The position numbers and the translations under genes are program-made. The notes beneath the pieces were generated by a model. It made no database searches. It was given only the letters and a program-made list of their open reading frames with translations, and was not told where the DNA came from. Shown here piece by piece: positions 346 to 42,407 of a DNA stretch of 64,000 nucleotides (within the stretch, counting starts at the first letter, position 1; each line of letters begins with the position of its first letter). The DNA is from Henricia sp. BOLD:AAB3569 (taxonomy: Eukaryota > Echinodermata > Asteroidea > Spinulosida > Echinasteridae), in NCBI GenBank assembly GCA_037783545.1, contig JBBELK010000480.1:1683001-1747000 (forward strand), written 5' to 3'.

Positions 346-346
346 A

Positions 347-2027: not shown

Positions 2028-2239
2028 GTTATCGAGGTTCCACTTATAATTTTCATTGCCTTTTGGGGCAGATTGCAAACGGTCTTTGCACTAGCACGAA
2101 TCTATTGACTTGATGAATATGTATTAGGGCTGCCTTGAAGATCATGTTTTGTATTGAAATATAAAAATATATTTGAGATTTCCCTTCAATGCAAGGAGTA
2201 ATTTCAGTCATATTAACTAAAGTTAAAAAATGTGTCTAC

Positions 2240-2812
2240 GCTATGAAGTTTTACAATAATGTCTCGGGAAAGCACTGAGTATACAGTGTTAATAATTACA
2301 TCAGGTTAGGGCAAAATGAACCCTAATTAACATTCAGTCTCCCTGATGCAAGCTAAATAAATTTCTGATTTATTGCAATCCCCCGGCCATTCAACACCGG
2401 CTAGCTCGGTGGTCGAGTGGTTAAGACGTCTGCCTTGTTTGTAGCCGGTTGTGGGTTCGAGTCCCACCCGAGTACGCTATAAAGTTTTTCATAGTGTCTC
2501 GGGAAAGCACTGAGTATACAGTGTTAATAATTACGTCGGGTAAGGGCAAAACGAACCCTAATTAACATTTAGTTTCCCCGATGCAAGCTAAATAAATTTC
2601 AGATTAATTGCGATCCCTGTTGCCAAATTATTTAAACCAGCCATTCAACACCGGCTTGCTCGGTGGTCGAGACGTCTGCCTTGTTTGCAGCCGGTCGTGG
2701 GGTCGAGTCCCACCCGAGTACGCTATCAAGTTTGTCTTAGTGTCTCGGGAAAGCACTGAGTATACAGTGTTAATAATTACGTCGGGTAAGGGCAAAACAA
2801 ACCCTAATTAAC
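2240..2812 (+). mobile_element. Cluster of tRNA-derived SINE copies
   Basis: Heads with A-box-like TGGTCGAGTGGTTAAG and B-box GGTTCGAGTCC lie at about 2400 and 2655. Each is followed by the same tail (TGTCTCGGGAAAGCACTGAG ... AAGGGCAAAACGAACCCTAA); a third tail alone lies at 2255-2330. The head looks like a tRNA with a decayed acceptor stem. A minus-strand fragment of the same family is at 21236-21300. Confidence 0.75.
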
Positions 2813-3101
2813 AGTATGTCTACCTTAATCACTAAATCACCAAAATCGGTTTGTTTAAATCATTACAAATGACATTGTTTTCATAAATCTGCTGTGCAGA
2901 GCTCTTTTTTAACACAGTATTTTGTTTTTACTTAACAGGGTAGGCTAATGCCAGTTTAATTAAACTTCAGTGTAGTTCTCCCTTAATTTGTTTGTTAAAT
3001 GTAGATATGTTGGGATCATTTGGCAATAGCTTAATTAATACACTATTTTAATAAGAAAACATCAAGATGGTTGGCACGGTGTAGGGGAAGGATAGTTCCC
3101 A

Positions 3102-3235
3102 ATAGACCCTTTGCACGGGCGGCCATGACAGGGGGTAGTCACATTGTCGCACTGCGTCATGCACAAGTAGATCTATTATCACATTTAAATATGAAAACCT
3201 GCCCCCTGTCATGGCCGTCGGTGCAAATGGTCTAT
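3102..3235. mobile_element. Short MITE, family also at 38180
   Basis: Inverted ends ATAGACCCTTTGCACGGGCG and the complement ending GTGCAAATGGTCTAT, with GCCATGACAGGGG/CCCCTGTCATGGC in both arms. A second copy with the same termini lies at 38180-38322. Confidence 0.8.
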
Positions 3236-3501
3236 AATGCCATTTTTTTAAAACTTGCACAACAAGAATTACCCCTAATATTTTTAACCTAGAAAGAACT
3301 GATATGTAAATGTGTATATTTGATAAAATACAATGCACTTTATTTTTCGGTGATAAATGTCAGGCACAATGCACGGATTGTCTGAAGTTGGTTTATTTAT
3401 GACAATTTGAAAGTGACCTACAGCATTTCAACTTGAAACCACATGGGAAAAGGTTTTTAAAAAAACATGATAGCCTTTAAACACGATAGCCTTTGCTAAT
3501 A

Positions 3502-4222
3502 CCCCCGTCATACTCTCCTGCGATCACGCTGGCGCTCCCACTGCGACCTGAAAGTATGAGGCAAAGCGCAGTAAGGTCTATGAGAACAATTTGGTGACGC
3601 AGTGGAAACTGTCAAGGACGGGAGAGGGTCGCCATGAGCTACCTTGAGCGCCAAACCTCGGCGGTTGTTTTGTGCATGCACAAAACAAGCGCAGCGGGTC
3701 GGCGTTCTGACGAGAGAGATGTAATGACACGGTACAGTCGCCATGCCAGCGCAAAGTGAACTACATGAGCGTATCGTGGACAAAGCAATAATGCATTGAA
3801 GCGACTGTATGCGACTGCTGTACGCTTATTGGCCTCTCAATACGTACCTCTCCCTTTCGTATTGCGCTGTTACTGCGCTTCTACTACACTTCTACTACGC
3901 TTTATGGTTCTTAAAGGCATGGTGCACACACACCGGCTGAAAGTAGAGTGATGCCATCAGGTCGCAGGAGGCTCTATTTATACATGCCGCGCATGCGCAG
4001 TGAGCGAGATGCAAACGTATTGAGAGCGTGGTGAGAGTGCAACAAGTGTGACTTGGACGCACTGAGAGCGCACACTGATGATCAAACTGGAAATGCATAG
4101 GGTCGCAGTAAGAGCGTAATAAGCGAGTCAAGAGCGTACTGTAAGCTGGTGTCACTGCGCTTTGGTTAAAAGTCCTGTAGCGCAAAGCGTTTTCCGGCTG
4201 ATCGCAGTTGAGTGTAACAGGG
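3502..4222. mobile_element. Diverged ~720-bp inverted-repeat element
   Basis: The left end (CCCCGTCATACTCTCCTGCG) matches the complement of the right end (CGCAGTTGAGTGTAACAGGG) at about three quarters of positions. The interior is GC-richer than its surroundings and rich in GCGC-type words. I see no convincing protein. Confidence 0.5.
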
Positions 4223-4659
4223 CTTTTAAGGCACCAACAGTTTGTCAAATTCTTTATCTGCCAAGACAACAATAATATGGCTTTAACTCTCTGGTGCACA
4301 GATTATTTGTTCGTTCGGGCGGTCTGTTCTTGACACGCGAATAATGATCTCGCGCCCGAACGACGACCCGATAACACAGCACTCAACCTAGGTGTTCTAC
4401 AGGCTCCAGGAATATTCTATAATTAGTAGTGTAGCAGTGGAACTTTACAGCTTCAATTTTATGCATAAATTTGAGTAAATTCCTCCAGGCCAAGTTGTGA
4501 GAAAGAAGGTAAGGCTTTAATTTTCTTATATTTATGACCCTATAAAATGAGTTGGATGTGGTGAAGTGTGGGCCAAGTTTTTGCAACCATAAAAAAAATC
4601 TGTGGATCATTTTAGGTAGTACATAAGTATTGCCAGGAATATCCATTACATTTTTGCAT

Positions 4660-4665
4660 TTTAAT
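4660..4665 (-). promoter_or_regulatory. Candidate ANKRD16 poly(A) signal (ATTAAA)
   Basis: On the minus strand ATTAAA lies about 70 nt after the ANKRD16 stop codon, the usual spacing for the commonest variant poly(A) hexamer. No transcript evidence is available. Confidence 0.35.
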
Positions 4666-4734
4666 GGGTCTGGTTATGGTCACGGCCCAGACAAATCTGG
4701 CTTGTCAAATTTGGCTCCAACATGTCGTCATATT

Positions 4735-9649
<4,915 letters not shown>

Positions 9650-9956
9650 CTCTGTTCATGAACAAAACACGATGTGCCAGATTTGCCGAAATGCCAAAAT
9701 CATAACAAATGAAGAGCGCCACCAATCGCCAAATCTCATCAATAGAGGATAAGTGGTCAACAGAGGGCGTCCTTTTTCGGGAATTCCCCTGGCGTGCCTG
9801 GGCTGCTTTCGGGCGCGGCACCAGGGATCCCTGGTGCTCCATGGTGCTCGCCCGAAAGCGCGTTGGTGCACCAGATGGTGGCACCAACTGCTCCCGACCT
9901 CTGAGTCGTCGGGACAACTGGGAGACATGCGCAGTATTCGTCTGCATCTGGCAAAG
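9650..9956. promoter_or_regulatory. Putative divergent promoter of ANKRD16 and a + strand gene
   Basis: The 307 bp between the ANKRD16 start codon (minus) and a strong-context ATG at 9957 (AAAGATGGCGG, plus) are clearly more GC- and CpG-rich than the surroundings. The segment contains an imperfect inverted repeat at 9805-9859 built on GCTTTCGGGC and CCCTGGTGCTCC. I recall that human ANKRD16 and FBH1 share a head-to-head promoter region. Transcription start sites cannot be seen. Confidence 0.4.
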
Positions 9957-16488: not shown

Positions 16489-18668
16489 ACGGTTATGGTT
16501 AGCAACCCAGTGCCTTAGCACTTCATCCCGCAGTGCAAATCCATCTCTGTGGTTGCCAAACCAATTTTCGAATTGGTTTGGATCATGGTCATCATCACGA
16601 TCGATGAAATCGTCCAGATCATCCAACTCGATGCACAGATTGTGCAGAATACATGCACATATTATAACCTTCACGATATGTTCTATCTTGAAGAGATATA
16701 ATTCGCGTAGACGTCTGAAACGGCACTTTAAGTGGCCAATAGCACGCTCAACAGCCTGCCGTATGGAAGACAGTTCTGTGTTGAATGCTCTTTGTTCCTG
16801 TGTTAGTCTTCCATTATCCTTGTACAGAGTGACAAGCCACCTTAGGTTTGGATAGGCAGAATCGCCAAGGATATAAAATCCATCAGCCAGATTACCACCT
16901 GCCTCCGCCTGTCTGAAAAACTGGCTGTTTCTCAAAATCCGTGCATCGTGCGCACATCCAGGCCAGCCAGTGTAGGCTACACGTATGCGAAGGTTGATGT
17001 CAACAATTACCTGAAAGAATGAATATTAAAGGCCATGAAATAGCACCCTATTTCTGTAAGTTTTTAAAGAAATTTTGTTGGAAAATGCTACATTTTATAA
17101 TAAAACGAACAGTAATGTCCTCCTAAACCAAACAATTCCTCATATACAGCAAAAACAGTGAAAGTATTGAAGGTTGATAATGCAGTCAGGAAAGGCTGCT
17201 TGATCAATATTTCTGAAATTTTCCTACTGCTAATTTCAGGTTTCCTCACAAAATTTACACTTCCTGAGACATTATCATGTCATATTAGGAGGAACGGGTT
17301 ACTGGGGTGGAAGTGTCAACAATAGACCGATCCAGTAAGCTCCGCCCATTTTGGAATTGACCAATCACAGCCTCAGTCTGTATATTTCCAGGGAAATAAA
17401 AAAATCCACCAAAGCTTTCCGGTTAAATAACAACCTTGATTACACCAACCTTTTTGCTTCCACATACAAATTTGGGATTGCAATTGTTCTCTTCTCATGG
17501 ATAGTAATTTGTGGGGTTATTTTTACAAGTCTGGTTGGAATGAAATCCAGTTTTTGAAAAAAATCTGGTCACGCTCCTTTAAAGGCCCCTGAAATGTATG
17601 TAAATTACTAATGTACATTGTGTGTAAATACCATTAGTTGCACTGAGGGAAACCCTTTCCGGTTTATGTAGTCATTATCCTCTTTTAATCTGTGTGGTAG
17701 CCTGCAATGTGTTCCGTCTATTAGTGCCGTGACACCAGGGATACCATGCTTAAGCTCAGTTTGGCGGGCAAGATGGCGCTGCTCTTCATGGCTGGGCCAC
17801 TTTATATACTGTATAATGAAAAAACAACACTTTGTACATCACTTTTAGTGTAATAATGCATTTAAAACAGGTAATGCATTACAATAGTAGAACATTTTTA
17901 AAGCTTTTGTTGGGACAGTACCAAACTGATGTGGACTTTACATCTACAGAGCACAATACCGTACGGTGCTCTGGAAATAAAGGCAATCTGATATAAAATG
18001 TCATCTTGAGGTTGAAACTTACATGCAGAAAACGACACAGTGATGTGCATGTTTAGTTATTCTCTGGTGACTAAAACAAACTGCATTTAAAAAAATTTTA
18101 ACCACTCAAGACAGTGTAGGCAAATCTGACAATTTATAAAGGGTCATTCTAAGAATCAATCAAAACGTTTATAAATGTAAACTTTTTTCAGGAGGCTCTC
18201 TATATTTTATCTCGTTTAAACAAGCAAATCTCACCTGGCCAACCTTGTTAAGTAATGCATCAGACACTCTGCTTATAACCTCCTCAACAGTTGAAATGGC
18301 CACATCGAATTGATGACCAATTTCACGAAAAGAGTCTTGGTTGGCCATGTACCATACAAACATTAATAACTGTTTTTCAGGGTGGACTCCATTGGCATCT
18401 TGAGGGGTGACATCCTGTCCAATGTCATTCATCAGATGAATGAACATTTCTCTTGATATGCGGTAATGTGTTCTGAACTGGTCAGGAGTGTACAGCAATA
18501 CAGTGTTTTCATAGTAGCCGACTATTTTTACCACATCATCTCTTAGATCATTGCTCCTAGCAACAATTTCATTGAGCAAATTGATGGCTTGCCCAACTTC
18601 AACATCATCATCATCTTCAAAGAAGAAAAGAATCCAGGGAAATAGAGGATTTTCCATTGCAGATTACC
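16486..18668 (-). CDS. HARBI1-like PIF/Harbinger transposase, intact three exons
   Basis: Minus-strand coding exons 18235-18657, 17632-17808 and 16486-17010 are all phase 0 and total 374 residues; an acceptor (TTCTAG) at 18669-18670 leaves an 11-nt leader before the ATG. The N-terminal part (FREIGHQFDVAISTVEEVISRV) is the helix-turn-helix region of HARBI1-type proteins. The DDE_Tnp_4 nuclease follows: first Asp D172 in ALIDGTHCRL, second Asp D250 in ILGDSAYPN, Glu E288 in QAVERAIGHLKCRFRRL, plus the GWPGCAHDARIL block. Human HARBI1 is 349 residues. I see no stop or frameshift, so the gene is recently active or conserved. The TAA stop sits in a TTAA that is also the target site of a MITE. Confidence 0.88.
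17390..17583. mobile_element. TTAA-type MITE, right part, in transposase intron 2
   Basis: Shares CACCAACCTTTTTGCTTCCA and the CTGGTCACGCTCCTTTAA terminus with the copy at 34090-34385 (inverted there). The left terminus is not recognisable. Confidence 0.65.
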
Positions 18669-22126: not shown

Positions 22127-23969
22127 ATCACGTTGACAAAGAAAATTAAAGCAGTGAATAAGTCCCAGAACGTGGAACTGAAGGGTTCAAATTGTCCCAG
22201 TTGACTGGTACTCGTTATTTATCTTGCCATGATTTGATGACACAATGGCTGAGCGTACACCAGCTAAAAATCCGAAAGACGTTGAACAAGAAAGTACCAG
22301 TAGCTACCAGAATGAGCCATCCGACGCCCCTCAGACTGGTAACAACAACACAGTTAAGATTGAACCACATGATGCTACGCAGGGTACCGAGGAAAGTTTA
22401 CAAATGGCTACTTTAGGACAAAATGCTGAGCAGAGTTTTCAAAATAACGGGAGACAGCAATCTGAAATGGCTACAAAGCCAGTACATGAAGCAAGGCAAG
22501 AAAACACACCTTCGGCGAGTACGTCCAACGTAAAGCGTAAATACGTGCACTTGGATGCTCTTGACTGCTCAGATTTGGCTCAGACTGGAGCGGGGGCTTT
22601 AGCATTAAAGAACCCTTCGTTGGTGCGAACATCGAGCAAAGACTCAAATAGAGGGCTGTATCCGCGCTCTCCGAAGACGACACACATGGCTTCTGATGTC
22701 TACTCGAGATTGTCACCTAAGACTCAAAACCGTAGTCCGAGTAAGGTCAAGCTCACTATGGAACAAATGAAAAACCAACGAAAGATGGAAGAGTTTTTCA
22801 CCGTTTCTCCCAACAAGCGATCAAAATCGGAAGTCTCACCCAACAGAAGCTCTCAGGAGTGCAGTACTCCTCCATCTGGTGGGCAAATCATGGCTACCTT
22901 TCCGAGAAGCACTTCTTCGCCTTTCCCAAAGAAAAGCTTAAACTCCCAGTTTGCCACCATGGGGGTGCCACATTCATTGCCCAGTCAGGCAGGGATCAGT
23001 TCAAACACCGTCCCGCAAAGCGGCAGCCAGCAGTCGGCTCTTGTCAAAGCACAAAATTCCGACGACAGATCAGATCATCGTCCAGCTTCAACATCAGCCA
23101 AAAAGAATGCAGATCCTAGTCAAAGTCTAGGCCCTTCCGGATCTGTAAAGTCAGTTGATGCTGATATTGAAAACTTCCAGAATGATGATTCTTGGGATGC
23201 ATTCGACCTAGATGTTGACGTATCAACTCCGCAACACAAGGTAAAGATTCTCCATTCCTTCAGTCCAAAATCACAAAAGACTACCCCAACTAAAATATTT
23301 CCCAGGCCATGCCAAAGTCCGAGTCCTTCAAAGTCCGTCAAAAGCACGGTAGAATCGGACATCGAAGACTTTCTGAATGACGATTCTTGGAATGCCTGCC
23401 AGCCGAAAATTGAAAACGATCTTGCATCACCTTTAAAAGTCAAGTCCGACCGGTGTTCCCAAAAGAACACTCCAACTAAATGGTTTCTCAAACCAAACCA
23501 AAGTCCCGGTCCGAGTCCGTCAAAATCTGTGAAGAGCACAGTTGAGTCTGACATCGAAGACTTTCATAATGACGACTCCTGGGATGGAATTCAGGAAGAA
23601 ATGGAAGTAAGTCTGCCAAATGACGTCAAGTCTGTCCAAAACAAAACCAACCCAGACAGTAACTCGACAAAAGTAGATGTCAAGAATTCAGTTGACAACA
23701 TTGAAGCCTTTGAAACTGACAACTCCTTCGACAACATTGATCCAAGAATTCTCGATTCTGACATACACCCTGATTGTTCCTCTTCCCAGCCGGATACCTT
23801 CGGTCTGCTTGGGGAGGGTTCATCGAGTTATTCGGACGAGGACGTGCCAGGATTTGACCAACTCCCTGTGGAGGTTCTAGAAAGGATCTTCTGTTTTGTG
23901 CCGATGAGTGCCTGCCTCAACCTTAGCCTAGTCTGCAAAGCCTGGAATGGGATCATTTCTAAGAAAGAC
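22127..23969 (+). CDS. FBH1: FBH1 first coding exon: disordered N-terminus plus F-box
   Basis: The exon opens after a TTGTGCAG acceptor and closes at AAAGAC|GTGAGT. The ATG at 22245 is the first in frame after an in-frame TGA at 22230, so 22127-22244 is read as 5' UTR and at least one noncoding exon must lie upstream (not identified). The 575 residues are rich in Ser, Pro, Asn, Gln and Lys and contain many SP/TP sites, which suggests a phosphorylated disordered tail. Residues 97-108 (KRKYVHLDALDC) and 137-140 (GLYP) resemble the start of vertebrate FBH1 as I remember it, which supports the frame and the start region. The F-box, with LPVEVLERIFCF and LSLVCKAWNGI, occupies the last 40 residues. 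Confidence 0.9.
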
Positions 23970-26900
23970 GTGAGTAGTAACAATAATGCACGTATCAATT
24001 GTTCCCCCGCCCCCTAGAACAATCATGCTTTTGTTTTATGCTTTTGTTTTACTTTCGCAGTTCATGCCCTGGAAGAAGACATACCATCGGATGAGGATGA
24101 ATTCTCTCGATGAGGTAGCCGAGGAGTTGACGGCCATCACACATGACCAAGAGGAGACTGAGGAATCTTGCCTTCTGCTTCTTGTCAGGTCTGCAGCTGA
24201 TGATATCCCTGAATCCTCATTTTTTCATTTTTTCTCACGTTAAAGCCCCTTGCTCACTATTGGTATCTCGCAAATCAGAAATGTTCACAGATTTACACAT
24301 AACTTACACAATATAAACATGAGGACGGGAGAAAACCTCCCATGAAATTGTTTTGTCTAAAGTGCTATAGTCTTTGAGAAATGAGTACGACAATTAATTT
24401 TCGTCCCATGAGATGAAAATTCACTTTGCACCAAAACCACTTTGCCCTTCACCACTTCGTGCTTGTGCCGTGTCAAATTTAAAAAAATCAAGTTGAATTT
24501 AATTCGACATGGCACAAGCATGACATTTGAAATGGGCCTTAGGTTAGAACGAGATCCATTTTCTGGAAAAATCTACAAAAACTCTCTTAATAATTATATT
24601 TTTTCTGAAATTGACCTCAGGAATATGCCCAAGTTCAAAGCTCGCTTTGGTTCTACCATGGACAAGGATCTGAAGAGACATCCAAAGTATGATCTCGCCA
24701 GAGACATCATGAAGACTCGAGCACCGGAGCTGTTACTTAGTGAGGTAATATTGGATTCGCACAACCATTTGTTCTCCTGTTAACTCGGGTAAATTTGACG
24801 CGGGTCGCCTCGAGAAAATGCGGCATTGAGGTAAAGTGCAAATTTTTTTACCATTCACTTTAAGCAAAAGTTATGCATGGATTTTGAAGGTTTTCTGAAA
24901 AATGTCTGCAGGCTAGTTTACCAACTTTTTGTTTAAGAACACAATATTTAAAAAAAAACAACCGAATTTGTTGATTTGCACATCCATGCATTATCAAGAG
25001 AAAAATTAGGTCCTTGGGGAAAACTTGAGAGAGAGTATAATACCAACTGTACCTTATAGCTCAGCTGGTAGAGCGTCTGCCAGGTGTGTCAGAGGTCTTG
25101 GGGGTGGGGAAACCTGAGGGAGTATACCACTGTGCCTCAGCTCAGCTGGTAGAGCATCTGCCCGGTGTGTCAGAGGTCTTGGGGGTGGGGAAACCTGAGG
25201 GAGTATACCACTGTGCCTCATAGCTCAGCTGGTAGAGCATCTGCCAGGTGTGTCAGAGGTCTTGGGGGTGGGGAAACCTGAGGGAGTATACCACTGTGCC
25301 TCATAGCTCAACGCTAAGGGAGTATACCACTGTGCCTCATAGCTCAGCTGATAGAGCATCTGTCTGGTGTGTCAGAGGTCTTCGGGAAAACCTGAAGTAG
25401 TATACCATTGTGCGTCATAGCTCAGCTGGTAGAGCGTCTGCCCGGTGTGTCAGAAGTTATGGTGGAAACCTGAGGGAATGTACCACTGTGCTTTATAGCT
25501 CAACTCCAGTAGAGCATCTGTCCGGTGAATCGGAGGTCTAGGGTTCGAATCCCATGTGATTTGTTTCCTTTCATTTCACCTTTGGGTACTTCTTTATGTA
25601 TGTTCTGTCCTTAATGTATTCCAGGAATCTTTATAAAAAAATCATTTTGCAAATGATATATTGGGCCTTTAAGATTGTCTGTGGTCAGGGCCATTTTACT
25701 ATCTCAGAATTTGAGCTGATACCTATGGCATATTGCAATTTAACGTTTTATTCTCAAAATGCGGCATTTTGTATGTTTCTAATCAGATACCCAACCCATG
25801 GTCCACAGTCTGTCTTCTCATCATCTTGTCGGAGACGGTTCAAGACGTACTCCGCACCTTAGACTGCCTCCTTCATGCAACGGCCTCGTGCACCACGATG
25901 GAAGTACTGGAATGTCTGTACTGCATTGCTGCATATATGTGGAAGTACAAACTTCGTTTTGGCCTCAATGGCGGGTAAATTATTATTTTTATTTTTTTAT
26001 TCTAAGTTTTCTCACTCGAGTTCATCAGAAGTGCTTTCGTATTCAGGTGAGTTTGATAAGGACGCTATTTCTCTGGCTCATTTTTATGCTGTTCAATATC
26101 ATTTAAAGACATTCACATTTGCTCGCCAAAACAGCCAGATTAGAATTTGCGTCAATCAAATACAAAGCATTGAATCTTCATTAAATTTGGCACAAGCTCA
26201 GGGCTTGGGCGAATTTGAATGATTTTCGCTGGTATTTCTAAATTAAATGAGACTGTAGTTTTGAATTTGATTACAGAATTTTCTCGATTGCGTGCTCGAA
26301 AATCCAAATTGAATGCTATATCTGAATAATTGAACAATGTTCCCAAACTGCATTTTATGCAAATACATGTCTCTTTTTAAATTCCATTTTACAGATGTCA
26401 CTACCGTGTCTACCATGCATTGTACCTGTTCGAAAACAGCCATGCTTCTGTTCCAATGGAAAACTCAGGACAAAGTGCAATGCCAAGACGTGGGTCAGCT
26501 CTACAGAAATACAGGTGTGAAAGCATGTAATGGTGAAAAGGGGTGCGTTTAGATTGGGTTCTGTGTGGGATTAGAATGGGATCAGTCCGGGATCAGATTG
26601 AGATTTGTCTGGGATCAGATTGGATTTATATTGGGATTGGGATCAGTCTGGGTTAAATTGTGTTGAGTCTTGGATTATATTGGGTTCGGTCAGGGATTAT
26701 ATTGGGATCAGATGGGGATCAGATTTGGTTCAGTCTGGGATCAGATTGGGTTCAGTCTGGGATCAGAATAGGATCAAAATAGGATCAGTCTGGGATCAGA
26801 TTGGGTTCAGTCTGGGATCAGATTGGGTTCAGTGTGAGATCAGTCTGGGATCATATTGGATTCATTCCGAGTTCACCTTGGCCTCGGGAAAAGAATGTAA

Positions 26901-29900
26901 TTGAGCTTAAATTGGGTTTGCATAAAACTCGTTCCAGTCTGATTTTTTTGCTGACAGTATTTCCTTCCCAATTACAGAATGGACCCTACCCATGAGCAGT
27001 CTCAGATCATCAACTACGACATCGCTCCAGGAAAAGTGGTCAAGGTTGTGGCATTTGCGGGTGAGTCTTGAATTGAACAAACAGTTTGTTCTTTTTGACT
27101 GTTGAATAAAAAGACTTTAAGACACAACGACGTTGCAGCTCATTTACATGTGTGATTACCTGTGGGCTCTACAAACTGTTTCTGTAGATTCCCATTTATG
27201 TAGTTTTGATTGCAAGCGTTGGCTTAGAGGTTTAGTGAAGTGAAAATTATCAACCAGCTGTTTTTATACACAAATCAAAAAATCAAAGTGTTGCAGACAA
27301 AAAGGCAAACTCAAATTTGTTTTCACTTTAGAAAGAAGTGACCTTTTCTTTACTTCAAAATTTTCTTGACAGACGAGGGCGCTGTTTATTGCTAGTCATA
27401 GAGGGAACCCACAGTTAAAAAACAAAGAAAGAACATTACATTTCAAACAGTAGCAGTAGCCCACTGATCCATTTTTGACCCAAACAAACTGTTGGGATTG
27501 TTGCAAATGACATACTAAACAAACTCAGTAAACTGTTACAGATCATAACACCAAGAAGTCACTGAAAATGACAACAACTTTTGTACACAAGTCAATGGAG
27601 ATTTCCTCTGTTGTCCTGAGATGACATCATGGAAATTTCATTAGCATAAAAATAGAAAACTTGCAATTACACCAAATCGGAACAATCAAATTTTCTGAAA
27701 TTGACCGAAATGTGTAAAACACACCCTCTACTATTATTATAATTAATAAAAACCCTATTTCACACGTCTTTTGAGCCTGTCGCACACCTTTGTGGTTTAC
27801 CATTGTATCGGCCCACTTACCAAAAAAGAGTGCACAGCTGCTGAAACATTGGTCTGACAGTACAGGAACAACCAGGACAAATCAAACTTTGATTTTTCTT
27901 CATCCGATGGTCCGGTGTCCGGATGGCTGGTATATCACGAAAGGCGTGCAGCGGGCTTTATGTGTACAGACTCCGTACACTCATTCCTTTATTTCTTTGT
28001 TCATTTTGATGATGATCTAATGTAAGTTGTACATTTATCCTTACCTGTTTTGTAATTTGTTGATTTCAAAATAAACAAAATAAATATGTAAATGAATTGA
28101 ATTTAGGGATTAAAAGTGGGTTTGGATGGTCTTAAACATATGTTTAAAACCGGATAGGGACCTGGACGCTGATAATGGCGCAAGCGGAAGGCGCGGGCCA
28201 TTATCACCGTCCAGGCCCCTATCCGGTTTTAAACAGATTGTTTAAGACCTGCCAAACCCACTTTTAATCCCATTCATAAATACCTTTTTTGTGTAAATCG
28301 GTAAAACTCACCAAAATAAGCTTGTCGTTGCATTCATTTTTTCGCTTTATCTTGTTGTTTGTACGTTCAAACTGCTAGCTGTGCGTTAAGTTGTTTGTTC
28401 TATCGCACGCGTTACGCGTATAATGCAGATGTGTTGTGTACGCGCACGCAGACGACCAGGTAAATGTCACATGCACAGTGCACATTTTGCTGTCAAGAGC
28501 GTGCAGTTTCTGCGCTGCGTATGTGTGCGAGTTCCATACGCTTACTAGGGCGCAGGCAGAAACGCGAGCCAGCTGGTTCTAAACACTGGTTATTATCATT
28601 CGTTTAAAACAGCCCACGTGATGTGTTCTCAGCCAATGAGGATGTGTAAACTGTCTAAGGTATTTATGACTGAAAATTAAACTCTTGTTACTCTTTAAAT
28701 ATCGCAAGGAACTGGCAAGACAATGACTCTGGTCAAGTACGCTGAGCGCAGACCCAACATGTCGTTTCTCTACGTGGCATTCAACAAGTAAGACCATTGG
28801 ACATAAATTCTCTAGCTACTAGGAGAAAGAAAACATCCCTAACTTTGATTATTTTTATGTAAGTGCTCTTAAAGAAAAGAAAAGAAACTTGATGCAGGTG
28901 AAAATAAGATACTGTCATTTTGGGGTCACTGGTCATTGGTTCATTCTGGGATCAGATTGGGTTCAGTCCTGGATCACACTGGGTTCAGTCTGGGATCAGA
29001 TTGGGTAGTATGGGATCAAAGTGGGTTTAGTGTGGAATCACATTGGGTTCAGTATGCGATTGGATTAGGTTCAGTCGAAGATCAGATTGGGCTCAGTCAA
29101 TAATCAGATTGGTTCAATCTGGGATTAGATTGAATCACATTGGGATCACATTACGATGGAATTAGGCTCAGTTTGAGATCAAATTGAGTTCAATCTTGGA
29201 TCAGTTTAGGAGCGAATTAGGCCGAGTGTTGGATCACAACAGGTAACTATTCCATAAAACTGTGCAATCCAAACTAAATCTTGTGTGTACAGGTCAGTCA
29301 TGGAACGTGCCAAGGATATCTTCCCAGACAACGTGACCAGCAAGACAACCCACTCTCTGGCTATGGCAGGTGTCGGCTGGAGGTAAGTTGGTTGAAGTGC
29401 CTTCTGAAGCTTGTTGAAGGTGCTTCTTGTAAACATGCACCTGTCCTAAGAGCATTTTGAAATTGAAGGAGCTTGAACTTTCGCCTGATGGAATCTCTTT
29501 AACAGTCTTCTGATTTGTATATTGTTAAGAAGTTAAATTTAATGTTTTTGCTAAGATCCACTTCAGATTAAAATGACTCTTTCCGACTCCCACATTCAGA
29601 GCCCCAGGTGACTACGTAGGCACTTAATGCCGATGACGAGATTTTCACCAGACAAACATATACATCCATTCATTCATGAATTTTTAAAAAAAATTCATTA
29701 CCAACCTCCTTTAGTATAAACATTATATTTGGGGAAAAAATGCGTTCTCTGGTACCATAATGTATTTTGGGTATTTTTAAACAAAGTTTCAGCTAAACCT
29801 GACAGGGGTCGTGTACATGGGTGGTTGAGTTGACATAGAATGACCCACCAAAATGCATGTGACCTTGTTGGGTCTGCCAGACATGTTACGTAACTTTTAC

Positions 29901-32900
29901 GAAAAAGAAATTGGTATGACAGTAGATGTGAATTTTGTTTGTATTTCTTGTAGGTACAGGTCAAAGCTAGATTCCTCCCTGAATCCATTCTACCTTCATA
30001 AGTTGCTACCCGCCGGAGAACGCAAGGAACTGCCCTGGCTTCGCTATGCCAGCTTGGTCTGCAAGACGCTGGAACGATTCTGCGCGGATGACATGGATTA
30101 CATAACAACGCAACACGTGCCTCAAGATTACTGCACGCACACTGTGAAGAATGATCAGATTGTTGCAGAGAGGCATGTATTGGAGCACCCGCTGCGAATG
30201 GTAAGCTCAGATTTCGTGAAAATAAGGATCGTTTTTTTAACTTTGAACTTTGCTGTTAAATGACACAGCTTTTTATTAGTGGTTTGGTTTTTTTGTGTGA
30301 ATTTGGAGCATTTTGTTAACGCTGCAATGCATACTTCCGAGATTGCCCAGTTAACCCCGCCCCTACTGTTGCTATGTGCTCACAAGCCATTGCAAAAAAT
30401 GGCGACACACAACGTACAAAGCAACAGGACTCGGCATGGAAAGCACAGATTCATTGGAGAAAACTCAAAGGTATTTATGTTTTAGGGTCGACGGGTACCG
30501 TAGCACACACTGAGCGAAGGGCTAGTAATGCAGGGATGACATATATTCATAAAAAATGCGCTTTCTAGCTACCTTTGAACAGCGAATCGCCCGACATTGA
30601 AACCAAAATTCACTCGGATCACCGCATACAACATACAAACTGTATGGGCAGAAAATCGCGTGATTGTGTGATGATTGCATCACTTTGACCTATGTGAGCG
30701 CTGTCTGCTAGCTCTGTTGTGATTGGTTAGCAGGTTCGGCTTGATTGACCGGTCGGAACTATGCATTAGAAAACTGACAAAATTTGATTTTTTTGTTTTT
30801 AATGTCCAGATACCAGTAAATATTTTGAAAGTTAACCAGTGCTGTATCCAGGCTAGATATGATATACTAGGGTTGTAGTCGAGTCCATTACATCTTCACA
30901 AGTAGTCACAAGTCCCTGGGTCTTAATTCAAGTCACAAGCTATTCAAATAAACTCCAACAAAAGTATTCTTTTGTGCGTGTTCATCCTTTGCTTCTTGTT
31001 ACTGGACTTGTGACAGACTTGTGCGGGACTTGTCATGGACTTGTGATGTTATCGGCTCTGGACTTGTGTACTTGTGATTGACTAGACTACTACAGTGTGA
31101 CATTCGGTGGTAATCTGAAATGTCCATTGCTAAAGCGCAGGGAAACAGTTTTAGTGTAGACCCAGTAACCTTGGCAGCACAAAGGGTGACGTCTTCACTT
31201 TAGTTCTCTATAACTAAATTTGGAAGAGACAAATTGTATTGTCCTCATACGGATTCAAACCCGAGACCTCTGACACACCAGGCAGATGCTTGATTTTTGA
31301 CACTGGACTTATTCGAACTTTGTAGAAAATTTCCAGCGATGCAGAATCTGTGTGGAAAAAGATGATCAACCCAAAGAACAAAGATGCTCGCATCATTCAT
31401 GACGGTAAAAAAAAATGTTTTTCTATAAATTTTCATTATCAGAAATTAATTCTGTGATAATTATACAAATTATGAAAATGGGATTTCTTTTAGGGATAAT
31501 GACCACAAAAAAAAAATTCCAATTGAAGTGATTGCACAACGCAAGTAACCCAAAGCACAAGCTTGCACTTTGCGCAAGTTGGCGTACTTCATCAGATTCA
31601 GATTCTGATGACTTGTCATCTTAATGCAAGTAAGTTTTTTGTAAGCGCAAGTTAATTCCAATGCCAACTTGCGCAAGGCGCAAGTAATTTTTGGAGGAAA
31701 TTTCTACCCCTGCTATTCACACTTAATAATCTGGGCAAGCTGGGCAGGGGTTTGGGGCATATCTTCAGTGATCTCTGGGAGGGGTGGTTATCTCATTGAA
31801 GGGTTTATCCCTCTGTAGGGCTTGCTGAGCTCACGTGATAGCCAATCCCAATCAGTGAGAAACAACTGCACTACCGTGATTCGAGACCACCAGTTGGCTT
31901 CATAGCTCAATTGGTAGGTAGTCTGCACGTTAAGCAGAAGGTCCGCGGTTCAAATCCCGGTGGAGCTAAGTTGTTTTTTACTGAATCCAGATTTCCCAAA
32001 CTCATGGACATTTGCCCCTACTTCTACATAATTTTTTTTTTAAATGTGAGGGTTATTCTTGAGTCAGCACTGTTTTCATTGAATAAAACAAGTAATTTTC
32101 TCTGTCATTCTGTAGTCTACCTGAAGCTGTACCAACTGAATAAACCTGAACTATCTCGGTATGACTGCTTGTTGATTGATGAAGCTCAGGACTTGACGCC
32201 AGGTATCTAGTATAATTCCCTTTTCAGTTGTAAACGACAAAGGAGTAACATGTAGTCTGACAATAATACCTTTCTGAAACCTCCCTGTGCAATTTTCCCA
32301 TGTAACGTAACAGGAGAGATATAAACCCTGTTCTCACTAGAGAAATCGCTTCGTTTGACGAAGATTAGTTAATCATCGTTAATGAAGCATGCGTTCACAT
32401 ATCACTTAACGAAGATCGAACGAAGATCGAATGAAGCGCGGTACCATACACATTATAACGAAGATCAAATATAGCTGTGGAAGGTCGTACATGCGCGTCG
32501 CGCATCTAGATGCACATCAAAAACAACGCTTGCTGGGCGCTTGACACACAATGCGCTTGTGCAACCAGGCCTGCCAAATTGCTTCGTCGAATGAAGTAAA
32601 GGGAGCGTTCTCATTACAAATTTGCTTTATCGAATGAAGCGATTTCTTCATCGAATAAAGCGATATCTTCGTCGAATGAAGCTATTCGCTTCATTCGATG
32701 AAGTGATTCTAATCATCGTCGAATGAAGAGGCGTGCGTTCACATCAGGAAATCTCTTCGTCGAATCATAGTCAAATGAAGCGATTTTTCTAGTATGAACG
32801 GGTAAAAAATGTCACACGTGTCTGTCGAGTGGTCGATTTTAGAAAGAAATAATTTGCGACGTTTCATAACAACTGAAGAACCCGTCGCAAAGTTACGACA

Positions 32901-35900
32901 ACCAAATACGTAATTGCAATTTTGTGAAGGGTTCTGCCCAAAGATTTTATAATGCTATGAAGCAATTCTGCTTACAGCTTGCGACATATACCCGTCGCAA
33001 GTGTTTTGTGAAATACAACTATAAAACCCGTTGTAAACTTACAAAGGGTTCGGTGAGTTGCGATGAATTTGAGCACTTACGATGCACTTGTTATGTAAAT
33101 TAGGGGCTGTCTAAGGTTCTCAACATTTTCACGATTCTACAAAGTGTAAGAAGGTGGAAGAGGGATCGAGGGCCGTGTAGGACACTTCATGGTTCCGACA
33201 GAAAAATGTTGATAAGTGGAGGGAGGGAGAGTCTTGAAAAATACTGCTCTCTGTAGAATGTTTAAAATATTGATAACTTTGCACTGCCTTTTTATAAATG
33301 AATGTTTTTGAAATTGTTACTCAGTTGGGTTTAAAAAAAACATTTTGAAACAAGTAAATTTACTACTTATATTTTGAGAAAAGCTAGAGAAAAGTATATC
33401 ATTTGCCAAAGCGGGGCTCCCACTGTGCGATTTATTCACACGATTTGGTACGATTTGGTACGATTTGGTACGATTGTGTGTAGAGTCTATATACAGTCTC
33501 TGGTAATCGTACCTAATTGTACCTAAATCGTGGCCAAAATCGCACAGTGCCCGCTTTAACCATATAATTAACCATACAAAATGAAACTTGATTTTTCTTT
33601 TCTCTTAAACCCCCACAGCTCAGCAGGACATCTTTCTAAACCAGCGAGGTGCCAAAATTCTGGTCGGCGATCCTCGGCAGCAGATCTACAGCTTCCGCGG
33701 TGCCAACGACGCGATGAACAGGGTGACAAGCCAGAAGACGTTTCATCTTACGCAGGTATGAAGGAAGAAAAGGATGGGGGCATACGCGGTTTCCTGCATT
33801 TTTTTATAGGCTACCCGGCCAGCGACAGAGCAAACTACTGCTAGGGTCTGCAGTTTCCTTCCCCAGTGCAAGCACCAGGTACCCATTTTACCCCTGGGTG
33901 GAGAGAAGCAATGCATGACAAAGTACCTTGCTCAAGGGTACATGCACCATGGATGGGCCGGACCGGGATTCGAACCCACAACCTTGGAACTAACCCAGAT
34001 TTTTAATACAATCCACTAGACCATTTCGCCATAGTACTCCACACACAGGTATGGTGGGAAATTAAACACAAATCGTTTACCTTATTCATGGCTTTAAGGA
34101 GCGCAACAAGATTTTTCAAAAAAAAATTTGTTCTAACCTAACAATCATATAAAATACCTCCCCAAAATACTATCTTCAATTTGGATGTGGAAGCAAAAAG
34201 GTTGGTGTAATTACTGCACTAGCTAATGTAACGCGATAAACTAACTTTGATGGATTTTTGACGATATCCCTGTGGTGCAAAATTTCAGATTGGTGATGAG
34301 ACTAATATGACAAATGATATGGTATCAAAAAACCATGGGGAAAAATGGGGGTCAACAACATGATCTGGACGCGCTCCTTTAAAGGCCCATTCCATCATTT
34401 ACAAAACCCAAAATTATACTTCATGAGTAAAACAGTAGAACAGCCGTGTTAGTCTGTAGATTAACAAAATAATTCAAGAGGTAGCACTTTAAAGACTAAT
34501 GAGTATGCGCATAATCTTTCGTACCAATAGCTACTTCATCAGATGCAGTTGATAAGAAAAAACGTTACTCAAAGTGTTGATAGCAATGGTAACAAACCCC
34601 TCATGAATTTTTTTCTGTTCAAGGTGGTATTTTCTGTAGGAAATTAAGAACTGAAGGTGTTTTTATTTTTTTAAATGTGTGTGCAAACACGTTTTTACTA
34701 ATCACTTAAAGCAAAAAACATGTATGGATTTTATAGGTTTTTCTGAAGCATTGATGCATCTGGGTCATTCTAAAATTTTGGGGTCCAATTGTTCTGTCCC
34801 CGTTACATCTGACATCTTGTAAAATGTTGTAGTTTGTAAATTCAGGACATATTCTTTAAATGCTCTCTATTTCAAAGAGTGATTACTTAAAGTACAATTC
34901 ATAAAAACATGTTTTGAAGGCATTTTTAATGATATTTGTATGGCAAATAGTATGTCAGGTGTAACGGGGACAGAAAAATGTCACACATTGGACCCCAAAT
35001 TTATAGAATGACCCATCTACATTTCCTTACGCCTACAGTCATTCCGCTTTGGTACTGAGATTGCTTACCTGGCCAACTGCTTACTGGAGCAAGGAACTAG
35101 CAACAATCAAATGAGACGGATGTTGATCGGCAAGAGAGAACCAGGTATGTTTAAAGACAGATTATACATAATTAACAAACTTTTAAAAACAGGGACAACA
35201 GCACTACATAACTAAAGAATAATGTTGATAAACTGCCTTGTAGAAGTTTCAGCCACATACAGCCTTAGAAAAAAATTATTGAACCACTGACAAACTGACA
35301 AAAATAATGTACAGTGAAACTTGTCTATACTGGCCACTATAAAGAGGTGGCCTCTTTATAGAGGTTTCTTAGGCATTATATACATGGCATTTGGGACCAA
35401 AGGTGGGTGGCCACTATATGCGCGTGGCCACTATATGCAGGTTTCACTGTACATACAATTTTTTTAAAGGAATGTCTTACAAAAGTTAAGACAAGTTCTA
35501 TGCGTCCTAATTCCCATACCAATGTCCCAAGCGCTTTGTCTTAGCGCTTTGTGAAATTGTCCCCTGTTCATGTATTGAAATCATGCAACAGGTCTCGCCA
35601 GTTAGTACAAATTATCAACTGGACACTGAGACCCTGGATTGATTTCACAAAAGTTAAGTCGAGTTCAATGCATCCTAATTCCCATACCAACGTCCCAAGA
35701 TGAGAAGAATGATCCTTCTTAAGACGCGTATTAGTGATTTGTGAAATCGGCCCCAGGAATAGAACCCGATACGCCAGAGGCGGGGAAAGAACCACAACGC
35801 AGTGACCTTGTATCTGGCTTTTTGTTTTAATTTCTCCAGGTCGCATTGACGGCGAGACAGTTGGCAAAAAAGCCATCATAACACGGACCAATGTTTCCCT

Positions 35901-38900
35901 GTTCACTGAAGCAGTCAAGATTGTGGAAAAGGACTCTAAGACGACGCTGGCGTTTGTTGGGGTAAACTTTAGAATTTTTGTGAGATCAAAGTTTGTTGGG
36001 GAAATTTCTTTAACTACATAGATGGTATCAAATAGCTGTCAATTTGAACAGCGTTCGAATTAGCACTGGTCCGTTGACAGTGGAAATCGTCTCGGGCCAG
36101 CTAGAAAGCCACTCCAAATGGTCCGGCTGTCCAGTTGAATTAAAACAGACCCATGCCGTACATGTTAAATTTTCGCGTTTCTGCAGTTTTCTGAATTTTT
36201 TATTTCTTTAATGCACTTTTATTTGCATGTTTTCACTTTTTTGTTGAGCGAGGCAGATTTTATTTTCTGCTTTTTTCTACGCACGCATGGGCGATCTTGT
36301 CTTTACCAAGCAAGAAAACAGTGACCTCCATTGACAGTAAATAGACTTGTCCAAGACTATGACGCTTCCGTCCGCGCCAAGACACTTCTGTGCGTGCGTG
36401 ATTGCATGTAAACTGGGCGCGCGTGCAGACCGCGACAGCAACGAGTCGCGATTTAGACTTGTGCAATCTAGTTACTACGATGGCGCCATGAAACTTCCGT
36501 GTAGTGTGTGGTATGCGTGCAGGTTTTTGCATGAACTGGCTGCCCCCTGCGCCTAGAGTTGACCGGCCGCTCTTGCTGGCAGGTTTTATTAATCAATCTT
36601 ATTACAAGTATCTTTTGTAAAGTGGACCACGTAAAGGACTGATGAAAATAACTTCTTCTTCAGACTGCCATGCTTGGCCATAAATACCGCTTTCGATACG
36701 GTCCTCCGCCAGCACGGCCCGCCCCGGCCTGAAGTCCCTGCCCCGTCCATCAACCATCAACCGAAAATCATAACACTGTTAAGTTGTGTAGTAGGTAGTA
36801 CGTCTGCAGGAAGTAATTTACGAATATTACACGCGGCTGAACCATGTTTTAGACTCGCGTCACGGCTTTCGTCATTTGTTGTTCAAAAGTTTGTGCGGTG
36901 CATTTGCACGAAATTATAACTTTAATCGCCAAAATAGGCTCAAGACCTGAAAATTAACTTATTATTAATAATGATTTTAATTCTTTTCAGGGTATTGATC
37001 GCTATGGGTTTGACGTCATTCTGGATATTTATCAACTCATGCAGCCAGAACACAGTAGGTTGTGCTTTATTCAGAAATTCTGGAATGTTTTATTAGGATA
37101 AAAACATCCATTATTTCATTTGGTAAATTTCTATTAACCCCTCAAGTCCCAAAAAAGTTTAGTGTAAAAATAACTTGGGTATGAGAGGGTCAAATGCTTA
37201 AAACTCTAGCATAATATATATTTTTTACCATAAAATATGTCTTTTCAAAGTTTCTGTTTCGGTAAGGCCCCTTAATCGCACACAGATTCGTACACAGTAA
37301 GGCCTATAGTAAACTTGCAGAGCCGTCACAACACTGAATGTTCCGAGAGTTTTCACTCCACAAACAATGGACACGGAAATAAGTGGCATATTTCAGTATT
37401 CAGCTCAGACACGCTCTAATTCACAATCGCAATTCCTTGTTGTGTCACGTGAGAACTAGCTGCCATTGTTGCAGCTGATTAAACAGCCTCATACTCGCTA
37501 TCATTCATTCTCATTCGATATCAGCATCGCCCGAATCTATTGCCCCGAGTACGAGGTCGAGCTGCCTGGGAAAAAATACATAGACTTATTTCCATTCCCT
37601 ACGTAGTCTACAGGATCGGCGATCAGTCTAGAAAATGTGAGGCAGTGCGGCAATAGAGGGCGCTGTTTTAATCTGCCGCAGGAAAACAAAAAGATTGACG
37701 CGCATGCTTAAAATCGACGCGCGCGCAGGCCAGAACCAGAACAGCCTCTTTTTTTTGGGCCTAATCCAAAACGTTCTTTGCCAAAACACATAGGAACAGT
37801 TCACTGGTTTTAGTGTAAACCCAATAACTTTAAGCAACACACAAAGGGTGACAATTTCATTTTAGTACTCTATTGCATTCAAAACTTGTCCTTTTTCTGC
37901 CCGTTTGTTGACATTGACAGAAAGGGAACGGATAAACAACCGTTACATCTTTGTTCACAAGAGCTATGGTGCACTCAAGGTTTACGTCAACGAAACTGAC
38001 AACGTTGAACTTGTGAATAAGATCCGAATCGTGGACATGTACAACATCAGAATACCAGAACTCGTCAAGAAAATCAAGAAGAGAACGCGACGGGAAAGTA
38101 TGGCAGGTAGGAACCCAATAATATATTTTTATCACGGTGCGGCCATCTTCCGTGTTCCTCTATTAAAACCAATGTAACCAATAGAGCCTTTGCACGGCGG
38201 CCATGACAGGGGACAGTCCCATTGTTACCACGTGTCAAGCACCTAGCTTTGTGGTTCTATTGTTACATAATTTAAATAGAAAACCTGCCCCCTGTCATGG
38301 CTGCCGGTGCAGAAGATCTATTAGAGATTGGAGCAAAAACGTTTGGCCTCGTATTAAATTTGTTGCATGTACAACAGAACGACATATTCGTGGTGTGATT
38401 GAACATACAGTAAAATCTTGTTAAGCCGAAACTCAAGGGATTGGGTAAAAATTTTCGAGGTATCCATAGTTCGAGATAAGCGGAGGTCACGATTTGCTCT
38501 GTTCAATGCACTAAAAGTGCCCACTGTAACTCGCTAGCCCCATGTGTATGGTGTGGACTCGTATTTAACCCATTTTGTAAGCCTTTTTTCCCATCTACAA
38601 ATCATTGTTTTGGAAAGACTTTTGTTGTTACTCGAAAGTCTATTTCATGTACAGTATTTTGCAGTGTTGTAGTACTAGAGTCCAGGACTCGGACTAGAGT
38701 CCGACTCAAGTCAGATTTTTCGTGACTCGGACTCAACTCAAGTCATATTGGAAAATGACTCGGACTCGACTATGATGACTCTGACTCGGCCATGGTGACT
38801 CAAGTTGCATATATTTCAAAACAAATGCAAGATTCTTGACACAGTACGACGAGTGAATATGTACACTGCCCCAGAGGCAGATTCAGTTTCATTTTAGGAA

Positions 38901-41900
38901 ATAATTGACAGACTTGATGAAAGTGACTCGTGACTCGGACTCGAGGCTGATGACTCGATACTCGGACTCGGACTTGATATTGGTGACTTGACTACTGGTA
39001 TTTTGCGGATATCTAATTACAAAAGAAATTCTCAGATTTTCATTAAACTACAAAATGTTTCTCTTGCTGCTCAGTATATTAACCTGCAGAAATTTCAGCT
39101 ACATGATGTGCTCTGAAAAGTAATGCACTTTCGTCTTGGTTTTTTAGACATCATCCTGAGCACAGCCCACAAGTCCAAGGGCCTAGAATTTGACACAGTA
39201 AAGATTACGGACGACTTTGGGATATGTGAAACCAGACTTGGTAAGTTTAGTTCGATACAAATGTGGATAAATGTCCATGAGTTTACTCATAGCTTGACTC
39301 ATCCTCTTTCTAATCTTGTGTTCAGTATGGGTGGCTTCTATTGGATAATCTCGGTTATTGTAAGAACTCTGGATGCCGCAATAGGGCGACATTTCGGGAA
39401 GACTCTTCCCGGGGACCACCAAAATTTCGGCAAAAAGGTCACTCAAAATGACACCTTATTTTTTACCCAAAGCTTCCAAAAATGGTTCCAGACCAAAGAG
39501 AAACAGCTGTAGTCCTAATAAAATAGTTTTTGACCTTAAACAAATGGTTTTTGACCTTAAAAAAAATGATTTTAAAAAATATATATATTAGGGAACACCA
39601 AAATGTCGCCCTATTAAGCATGTCGCCCTAATATAGCTTTTTTACACACAAAATGTCGCCCTATCCTAGCATTCATAGTTTTTGATCTTAACAAGAAACA
39701 TTACTTAACATTACCAAAACACTCTAAGGAGTAACTAGAATGTGGGTTCGATTCCGGGCCGTGACGGGTTGTGGCACTTGTGCTCTTGAGCAAGGCACTT
39801 AATCACACTTGTTCCGTCCTTCGGAAGGGATGTAAAGCCGTTGGTCCAGTGTGCTAGGTTTCGGTAACGCACTTTAAAGATCCCAGAGCATTCTTTCGTG
39901 AAGAGCAAGGGGAGGGATTCCCCGGTGTCTCTGGCAGTTTCAAATTCAACTTAGAAGTTGATAGTTATTCAAATATCTATGTTAATTGATCCCATTCCTG
40001 TAATTGGCGGTCCTTCCGCTGTTGGATGTGGTGAATAAATAAATAAACAATAATTAAATAAATAAATAAATAAATAAGACGCACTACTTGTTACCAATGA
40101 GTGTTATTGGGTTAAAAGAATTCAACTTTTTAAAGAGGTACCACTTTCATGCACTTGAACTTGTGGGGTGTTATGGCCGAGCGGTCTAGTGCGTCGAACT
40201 TAAGTTCCTGTGCCAGTACTAGAATGTAGGTTCGATTCCGGGCCGCGACGGGTTGTGGCACCTGTGCCCTTGAGCAAGGCACTCGACCACACTTGCTCCC
40301 ATTCCTGTAATTGGCGGTCCCTCCGCTGTTGGATGTGGTAAATAAATAAATATAGACATGTATTGTGGTATATGTTAGGATATCTGTACATTTCCTTGTT
40401 ATATAGAGACCACCTGATTTATTCTGGCCACTTTCTTGGGTCTGCATTTGGCTTGTTTTTCTCACAGACATTTTCAGGGTCCTTGAGAAAGATGAATTGA
40501 ACCTGGTCTACGTGGCAGTCACAAGGGCAAAGAAGAGCCTTATTCTCACGCACAGTCTGATGAAGTTCATTGGTAACCATCCTACGCTGGTAAGCTTTTA
40601 CTAACCCTGGGTACCGGGGTTATTCATTCAACACAAAAACCATGCATGGATTTTTGAGGTTTTCTGAAGTATTACTGCATCTATGTGGCTGAAATTTATA
40701 CAAGGCAGTTTATCAACGTCATTCTTTAGTTATGTAATGCTGTTGTTCCTGTTTTTAAAAGTTGTGTAATCTGTCTTTAACCGTCCAACATGCACCGCAC
40801 ATAAAATTACACCGGGACTCGAAGGAGAGACTCCAGTTGGGGCTATTTCCCTGTCAGGCCATTGGTTGCAAATATCTGTTGTTTACATTGTGTCACTGGG
40901 CCATTGTGTCACTATTAGCAGGGTACACAAATGAGTGGAGCTTGGCCAGAGGTCCATATTTTCAGGGTCGGCCTGACTGGTGAGTGAACTCAACATTAAA
41001 GGTGACAAAGGATACAAACTCCAAGAGTCTCTTTACAATACGAGTGGGGCTGGAAAGAATACCTAGACCGCACCAAGACAACCAATTAAGCATGCCTCTG
41101 CATATAGCAAGCATGGTAAAGTGCCTTGCTCAAGGGTACAAGTGCCACAACCTGTCACGGCCAGGATTTAAACTCAGCTTGAATTCAGTGCACTACACCA
41201 TAAAGCCACACGCCAGAATGTATTCGTTACTTCTTGATTTTTTTTAATCTCAGGAAAAGTTTGCGTATCCAGCTGCACCCTGCCTTTCCAATGACCAGAA
41301 TGTTGTTTGTGCGGAGTGCAAGAAGGCTATTCCGAGTGGTTACGTTGTACTCCTCAGCAAAAAAGCACTTCAACTGGTAAAACTCTTTCTTTCTTTCTAA
41401 CAAATTTGACATTAAAACATTGTATTTGAGCACATGAGCAAACACAGGAAATGCAGGCACGTGAAATCTTTTTGGGGATGGATTTTCTGCCTTTTTCCCC
41501 TCCGATTTTCCCCTGCTCTTTTTGTGTTCGTTATTTTGCTCACCCATGCATCCCCGACAAAACAAATTGGGTTCATAAGAAAAATCCGAGGGAGTATACC
41601 ACTGTGCCTCATAGCTCAACTGTTAGAGCATCTGCCCGGTGTGTCAGAGGTCTTGGGGAAACCTGAGGGAGTATACCACTGTGCCTCATAGCTCAGCTGG
41701 TAGAGCATCTGCCCGGTGTGTCGGAGGTAAAACCTGAGGGAGTATGCCACTGTGCCTCATAGCTCAGCTGGTAGAGCATCTGCCCAGTGTGTCAGAGGTC
41801 TTGGAAAAACCTGAGGGAGTATACCACTGTGCCTCATAGCTCAGCTTGTAGAGCATCTGCCCGGTGTGTCGGAGGTCTTGGTGGAAACCTGAGGGAGTAT

Positions 41901-42407
41901 ACCACTGGGACTCATAGCTCAGCCAACTTTGTTCCAAATGTCCACAGACACGAGCATTTTGCAACAAGTGGGACTCGAACCCACAATCTCTCAATTATGA
42001 ACACGGCTGTGTACCCACTAGACCACACACTCTTCACGCCATTTAATTTGTTCACACCTTACACATAATCTAACAGCGCAGGCACAGTAGCCTACTCCCT
42101 GCTGTTGCCAGCTGACCAATCAGCGCATAGCATTCTGATTATGTCATCACCGCTCTTCAGCTTTTTATTTACACCGATAGCGTACCCACGCCATTTAATT
42201 TGCTTCCAGATTTGCACAATACCCAGGCTTTGACATTAACCTTGATATAAATGTGTCCAAAGTTGTAAACATTTTCAGTTGTCATATTTTTCGAACCCCC
42301 TTCCCTTCCATTCCCTCCCCCTGAAATTCTACTTATCAACATTTTTTTGTCAATGCCATGAAATTTCAACATTTTCACCGTATCAACGTATGCAGCCCTC
42401 GACCCCC

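Follow-up and report, generated by a model that had tools for sequence, protein, structure and literature searches.

An old, constrained four-copy acidic-aromatic motif in the N-terminal region of a sea star FBH1: a candidate RPA70N-docking array

The FBH1 gene of the sea star Henricia sp. BOLD:AAB3569 carries a repeated acidic, aromatic peptide in its first coding exon, and the question raised by this locus is what such a repeat might serve to bind. We analyzed a window of 64,000 nucleotides (contig C480, positions 1683001–1747000, of a 740-Mb genome), in which all features of the gene given below lie on the + strand. An open frame of 575 codons with a GT donor after it (22245–23969) represents the first coding exon and encodes an F-box at aa 537–572 (23853–23960; Pfam PF12937, E 1.3e-8). 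Downstream exons with UvrD-type helicase stretches (GTGKT, DEAQD and VAVTRAKK) extend over 24061–40559, as judged by ordered tblastn pieces that do not mark exon borders. The query was a human FBH1 sequence, which agrees with the compared stretch of PDB 9xzj. Its residues 252–935 were covered by + strand pieces with gaps (299–334 and 578–626 among them), and no match beyond residue 935 was found in the window. Several blocks were shared with human FBH1 (FBXO18): the block KRKYVHLDALDC at 22533–22568, which tblastn aligned to KRKHLTAIDC (KRK..IDC); NxGLYP; a PIP-box-like QRKMEEFF at aa 178–185 (22776–22799), found by pattern and aligned with human QRCIPEFF; and PDTFGLLG at 23790–23813, directly 5′ of the F-box, which corresponds to human PDSYYGLLG (PD-[ST]-[FY]..GLLG) in an alignment with PDB chain 9xzj_F that was weak overall (E 0.013). 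With an F-box followed by a UvrD-type helicase, and with N-terminal blocks common to human FBH1, the gene is by its sequence FBH1. The PDTFGLLG/PDSYYGLLG peptide might be a second conserved linear motif of FBH1. A 2025 review restricts FBH1 homologues with both activities to S. pombe and vertebrates, a statement that the window gene, with both domains predicted in it, does not fit.

A preliminary description of this locus had noticed four copies of the motif, three strong and one weak, had placed them in a unit of about 64 residues duplicated at least once, and knew of no such motif in vertebrate FBH1. The description of the repeats held. Exon 1 gave four matches to the strict pattern [DN]IE.F..D[DN]S[WF], which start at aa 307, 372, 436 and 485 and correspond to copy 1 DADIENFQNDDSWDA at 23157–23201, copy 2 ESDIEDFLNDDSWNA at 23352–23396, copy 3 ESDIEDFHNDDSWDG at 23544–23588 and the weak copy 4 VDNIEAFETDNSFDN at 23691–23735, in which the pattern reads NIEAFETDNSF. 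Alignment of the surrounding units showed that unit 1 (aa 300–363; 23142–23333) and unit 2 (aa 364–427; 23334–23525), of 64 aa each, match end to end, with 14 of 19 residues identical inside the motif block and 15 of 42 aligned residues outside. Unit 3 is partial (50 aa, aa 428–477; 23526–23675) and keeps the motif with little likeness past it, and unit 4 is a remnant (aa 478–506; 23676–23762) that comprises barely more than the motif. A looser pattern, [ILVM]..[FWY].....[FWY], likewise matched exon 1 four times, every match being a motif copy. Shuffled versions of aa 1–535 gave a mean of 0.16 such matches (0.006 with a net acidity of at least 3), and four acidic matches were obtained in 0 of 20,000 shuffles, although the four matches are not independent, since copies 1–3 arose by duplication. 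Human FBH1 differs in this respect: the N-terminal region of its sequence is devoid of the I-x2-F-x5-W pattern, and the only match to the spacing, at residue 809, lies in the helicase part. Our literature searches, which did not target repeats in particular, brought up no description of repeats of this kind in FBH1. The N-terminal region that carries the motifs is probably disordered. Three known binding motifs were tried and rejected as readings of the repeats: the sole exon 1 match to a PCNA-binding PIP box (Q-x2-[ILMV]-x2 and two aromatics) lies outside the repeats, RAD51-binding FxxA had zero matches in exon 1, and the one SIM-like match is located in a linker, outside the motifs.

Further copies of the gene allowed the motif to be compared. 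Contig C70 harbors a collinear copy, presumed to be the other allele, whose blocks match window positions 116–9705 and 20939 onward with 79–95% identity among the matches listed. The same contig (1589342–1657789) bears an inverted FBH1 copy 66–68 kb from the allelic FBH1, beyond a satellite array like that of the window; on contig C480, only the window copy appeared among the matches listed. The PIP box QRKMEEFF is present in the window gene and the presumed allele. In the inverted paralogue it is altered to QQKMEEFS, and exon 1 has a break in its frame at the 5′ end; the four motifs and the matchable helicase pieces are present. I-x2-F-x5-[WF] was kept in 12 of 12 motifs of the three genes. 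A 26-residue motif query against this genome yielded nine matches (E up to 10), three in each of the FBH1 genes and none outside them, which is no proof that the motif is absent elsewhere in the genome, as the query missed the weak fourth copy in all three genes.

Comparison of the repeats with each other revealed a motif maintained at the protein level. Between units 1 and 2, synonymous change was saturated over the 19 codons of the motif block (pS 0.93), with a pN of 0.16 and a dN of 0.17, whereas 26 aligned linker codons, the alignment of which is itself uncertain, gave a pN of 0.65 and a dN of 1.49. Rounded nonsynonymous counts of motif block and linker differed with a Fisher p of 2e-7, subject to the same uncertain linker alignment. 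The TPTK..SPSK block of these units showed a dN of 0.32 and a dS of 0.87, and copies 2 and 3 were separated by 9.5 synonymous and 2.5 nonsynonymous changes over 20 codons. Across nine core codons, which were picked for their conservation, copies 1–3 exhibited 0 nonsynonymous and 2–6 synonymous changes, and the comparison with copy 4 showed five nonsynonymous ones. By contrast, the dS of the window gene over exon 1 was 0.046 against the presumed allele and 0.149 against the inverted copy. The repeats are thus much older than the gene copies. The preliminary description would have taken neutral substitution patterns, together with a lack of conservation among close relatives, as an argument against its reading; between the repeats, as far as this is testable, we found constraint on the motif instead. 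Exon 1 therefore contains a real, old four-copy linear motif that is constrained between repeats.

A neutral expansion, i.e., a repetitive disordered region without specific function, would agree with the Pfam search, which assigned no family to the repeat region, and with allele-to-allele dN/dS ratios of 0.75 for exon 1 as a whole and 1.01 for its stretch upstream of the repeats. The three gene copies also displayed no extra constraint on the motif: with gapped columns dropped, 7 of 60 motif columns were variable, compared with 80 of the 461 remaining columns upstream of the F-box (Fisher p 0.36) and with 19 of 164 other columns within the repeats (p 1.0), three of the seven variable motif columns being the free position after Phe. 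We nevertheless regard a neutral origin as very improbable, given the few amino-acid changes in the motif against saturated synonymous change, a linker that is near-random between repeats, and the location of three of the four Trp residues of aa 1–535 at the motif position.

For a possible partner of the motif we turned to peptides that bind the N-terminal domain of RPA70, a style of peptide to which the preliminary description had likened it. Among six peptides of the BTR complex, motifs 1 and 3 (BLM) and 5 (RMI1) pulled down RPA via the N-terminal cleft of RPA1, an interaction that was lost with R41E/Y42F, and motifs 2, 4 and 6 were reported without an RPA pull-down (PMC7838300). BLM motif 3 (DIDDFDDDDDWE; peptide bait DIDNFDIDDFDDDDDWE, PMC7838300) aligned without gaps to copies 1–3 with scores of 44–49 and shuffle p values of 0.0043 (DIENFQNDDSWD), 0.0030 (DIEDFLNDDSW) and 0.0013 (DIEDFHNDDSWD), respectively, in a set of 24 comparisons. 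Copy 4 showed no resemblance to this peptide beyond chance (p 0.42), BLM motif 1 failed to score significantly against any of the four (p 0.27–0.93), and the best non-binder, RMI1 motif 6, reached p values of 0.09–0.19 with copies 1–3. The shared features amount to D-I-D/E-D-F...D-D-x-W-D/E, BLM motif 3 being more acidic than the FBH1 motifs. This specific match to BLM lends weight to the earlier comparison with RPA70N-binding peptides. The spacing I-x2-[FW]-x5-[FW] was found in both BLM binders but not in the RMI1 binder or the three non-binders (sequences from PMC7838300), nor in the Pol32 motif. It is therefore no defining rule for RPA70N binders.

Structural data from other helicases are consistent with this likeness. 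Crystal structures and mutants place I151, W154 and F160 of BLM motif 1 (BLMp1) and F556, I558 and F561 of motif 3 (BLMp2) at the interface with RPA70N, F160 reaching into the side pocket of another RPA70N molecule (PMC10479964). In motif 3, the Trp that corresponds to the FBH1 Trp (residue 567 by count) lies past residues 550–564, which are those visible in the crystal (PMC10479964). The acidic helix envisaged in the preliminary description did not gain support: a single-sequence AlphaFold prediction of aa 276–575 without alignment gave no helix in the repeats (mean pLDDT 43, uninformative), and BLMp1 and BLMp2, the closest peptides, bind RPA70N in kinked forms (PMC10479964), so that a straight helix is not needed. 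Some other RPA-binding motifs do adopt an amphipathic helix in the bound state. In yeast, W75 of Pif1 L66/L69/W75 and F993 of Mph1 L987/F993 were modelled in the side pocket, and Mph1 F993A phenocopied loss of the RPA-binding tail (PMC13237216). The +3/+6 spacing of the FBH1 motif equals that of the Pif1 residues, and Mph1 exhibits the same +6. These RPA-binding motifs thus share with the FBH1 motif groove residues followed six residues on by a side-pocket aromatic, in the case of Mph1 in a protein that dissociates D-loops, but there is one motif each in the section of PMC13237216 on them, and the groove is occupied by leucines or isoleucine where FBH1 has Ile and Phe. BLM resembles FBH1 in that both of its motifs have the I-x2-[FW]-x5-[FW] spacing and in that a repair helicase here, too, bears more than one copy in a disordered N-terminal region; it is a RecQ helicase, whereas FBH1 is of the UvrD type, and its motifs (146–165 and 550–570) are about 400 residues apart and not tandem repeats. 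WRN, also a helicase, has an RPA-binding unit twice in tandem, but its two identical-sequence copies bind as a continuous helix (PMC10479964), unlike the four diverged copies and long linkers of FBH1.

We consider it somewhat more probable than not that the four motifs are RPA70N-docking peptides, forming a candidate array of RPA-binding motifs like those of BLM, Pif1 and Mph1. Another acidic-peptide hub, such as the PH domain of TFIIH p62/Tfb1 or a TAZ-type domain, could be served instead, as the four motifs carry a net charge of −5 to −7 per 15 residues and acidic-aromatic peptides of this kind are known to bind several hubs. The second activation domain of p53 (DIEQWF) docks on such hubs in addition to RPA70N. 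We judge this alternative rather unlikely, in view of the +3/+6 spacing, which matches the BLM and Pif1 RPA motifs, and because a review describes FBH1 at stalled forks and RAD51 filaments, not in TFIIH repair. In a further reading, the target of the motifs is RAD51, a partner specific to FBH1, or FBH1 itself through folding back, and the RAD51 filament would be held at several points at once. A review states that FBH1 binds RAD51 directly and removes it, and that a mutant lacking only RAD51 removal or interaction is still needed; repeats would suit a filament. As exon 1 has no FxxA and the motif is acidic and resembles the RPA motif of BLM, this reading appears unlikely as well.

The proposed partner was also searched for directly. 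A PDB sequence search with one motif gave 0 matches, RPA70N fusions not being recovered, and a search with the nine-row motif alignment returned no RPA entry and a single unrelated PqqD match (E 0.06). No credible match to RPA1/RPA70 was obtained in this genome with family searches (PF04057, PF16900 and PF08646) or with human RPA70 as a protein query; one sub-threshold PF08646 match (E 0.885) looked by eye unlike RPA1. These searches were possibly insensitive, because each exon was read by itself and because, of the three families searched, two had no match in any control genome. Human FBH1 is listed in a review table as contacting RPA32, not RPA70N (PMC10888239).

If the motifs dock on RPA70N, the Ile and the Phe three residues on would occupy its basic-hydrophobic groove, flanking Asp/Glu would pair with its Arg/Lys, and the Trp/Phe six residues after the Phe would insert into a side pocket, either of that RPA70N or of an adjacent one. 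Each site would be weak on its own and engage one RPA70N per motif; affinities compiled here for unphosphorylated single RPA-binding motifs are about 0.3 to 23 µM. Four such sites, some 50–64 residues apart, could then provide avidity for ssDNA covered by multiple RPA molecules. Multivalency has precedents in the three motifs of BTR (PMC7838300) and the two tandem motifs of WRN (PMC10479964). A preference for ssDNA with several RPA molecules has been put forward for the three-motif BTR complex (PMC7838300) and for multivalent RPA partners in general. Such an array might bring the FBH1 helicase, together with its SCF ubiquitin ligase, to sites at which RPA gives way to RAD51, beside a PCNA contact, with CDK-type sites in the linkers allowing cell-cycle control and the separate PIP box allowing control by PCNA.

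Such sites are enriched in the N-terminal region. The SP/TP sites mentioned in the preliminary description are both enriched and located between the copies, as there are 18 in aa 1–535 against 10.2 expected (18 reached in 94 of 20,000 shuffles), and full CDK sites number nine against 1.1 expected (nine reached in 0 of 20,000 shuffles). Five of the nine were mapped by the CDK-site scan to units 1 and 2: TPTK at aa 347 (23283–23294) and SPSK at aa 360 (23322–23333) in unit 1, and SPLK at aa 395 (23427–23438), TPTK at aa 409 (23469–23480) and SPSK at aa 424 (23514–23525) in unit 2, TPTK and SPSK thus recurring in both units. This excess, together with SDIE of copies 2 and 3, which fits a CK2 site, would also suit a degron or phospho-switch array, in which the acidic motif and CDK/CK2-type sites recruit a ligase, a phosphatase or a CKS protein. 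However, copies 1 and 4 lack the CK2-type Ser before DIE, having Ala and Asp there, respectively, and in nine distinct aligned copies Ile, Glu, Phe, Asp and Ser are among the invariant positions, with the Trp/Phe position always aromatic; we hold this explanation to be quite improbable.

Taking RPA70N docking a step further, we tentatively suggest, with considerably more doubt than for the docking itself, that FBH1 of this lineage is a four-site sensor of RPA arrays with CDK-tunable linkers, in which a helicase and ubiquitin ligase would engage only multi-RPA stretches through a BLM/Pif1-type side-pocket motif absent from human FBH1. If so, different helicase families would have converged on one docking grammar, and the recruitment of vertebrate FBH1 would rest on other contacts. 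Which interaction separates the removal of RAD51 by FBH1 from its other functions is named as an open question in the 2025 review.

The surroundings of the gene exhibited several additional features. Downstream of FBH1, window positions 46025–63943 consist of about 18 kb of 300-bp satellite, with 164-, 219- and 463-bp periods present too. Tandem units of 77–83 bp with a tRNA A-box-like stretch (AGCTCAGCTGGTAGAGC) were found at 25040–25539, in an FBH1 intron, and at 41581–41923, and two FBH1 introns contain similar 22-bp minisatellites (GGGATCAGATTGGGTTCAGTCT-like) at 26551–26864 and 28938–29132. A tRNA-family match lies inside the FBH1 gene (31896–31968; 39.8 bits) and another at 2403–2475. 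On the minus strand, an open frame of 164 aa at 18169–18663 encodes what we take to be a fragment resembling a HARBI1/PIF-Harbinger-type transposase. Elsewhere in the assembly, contig C955 bears three COX1 copies 16221 bp apart, and the mitochondrial genome was seemingly assembled as a concatemer. The COX1 of contig C2104, read against residues that we assume to be conserved, made best sense if AAA stands for Asn, ATA for Ile and AGA/AGG for Ser (as in DDQIYNV and NFITTIINM), which corresponds to code 9 of echinoderms and flatworms.
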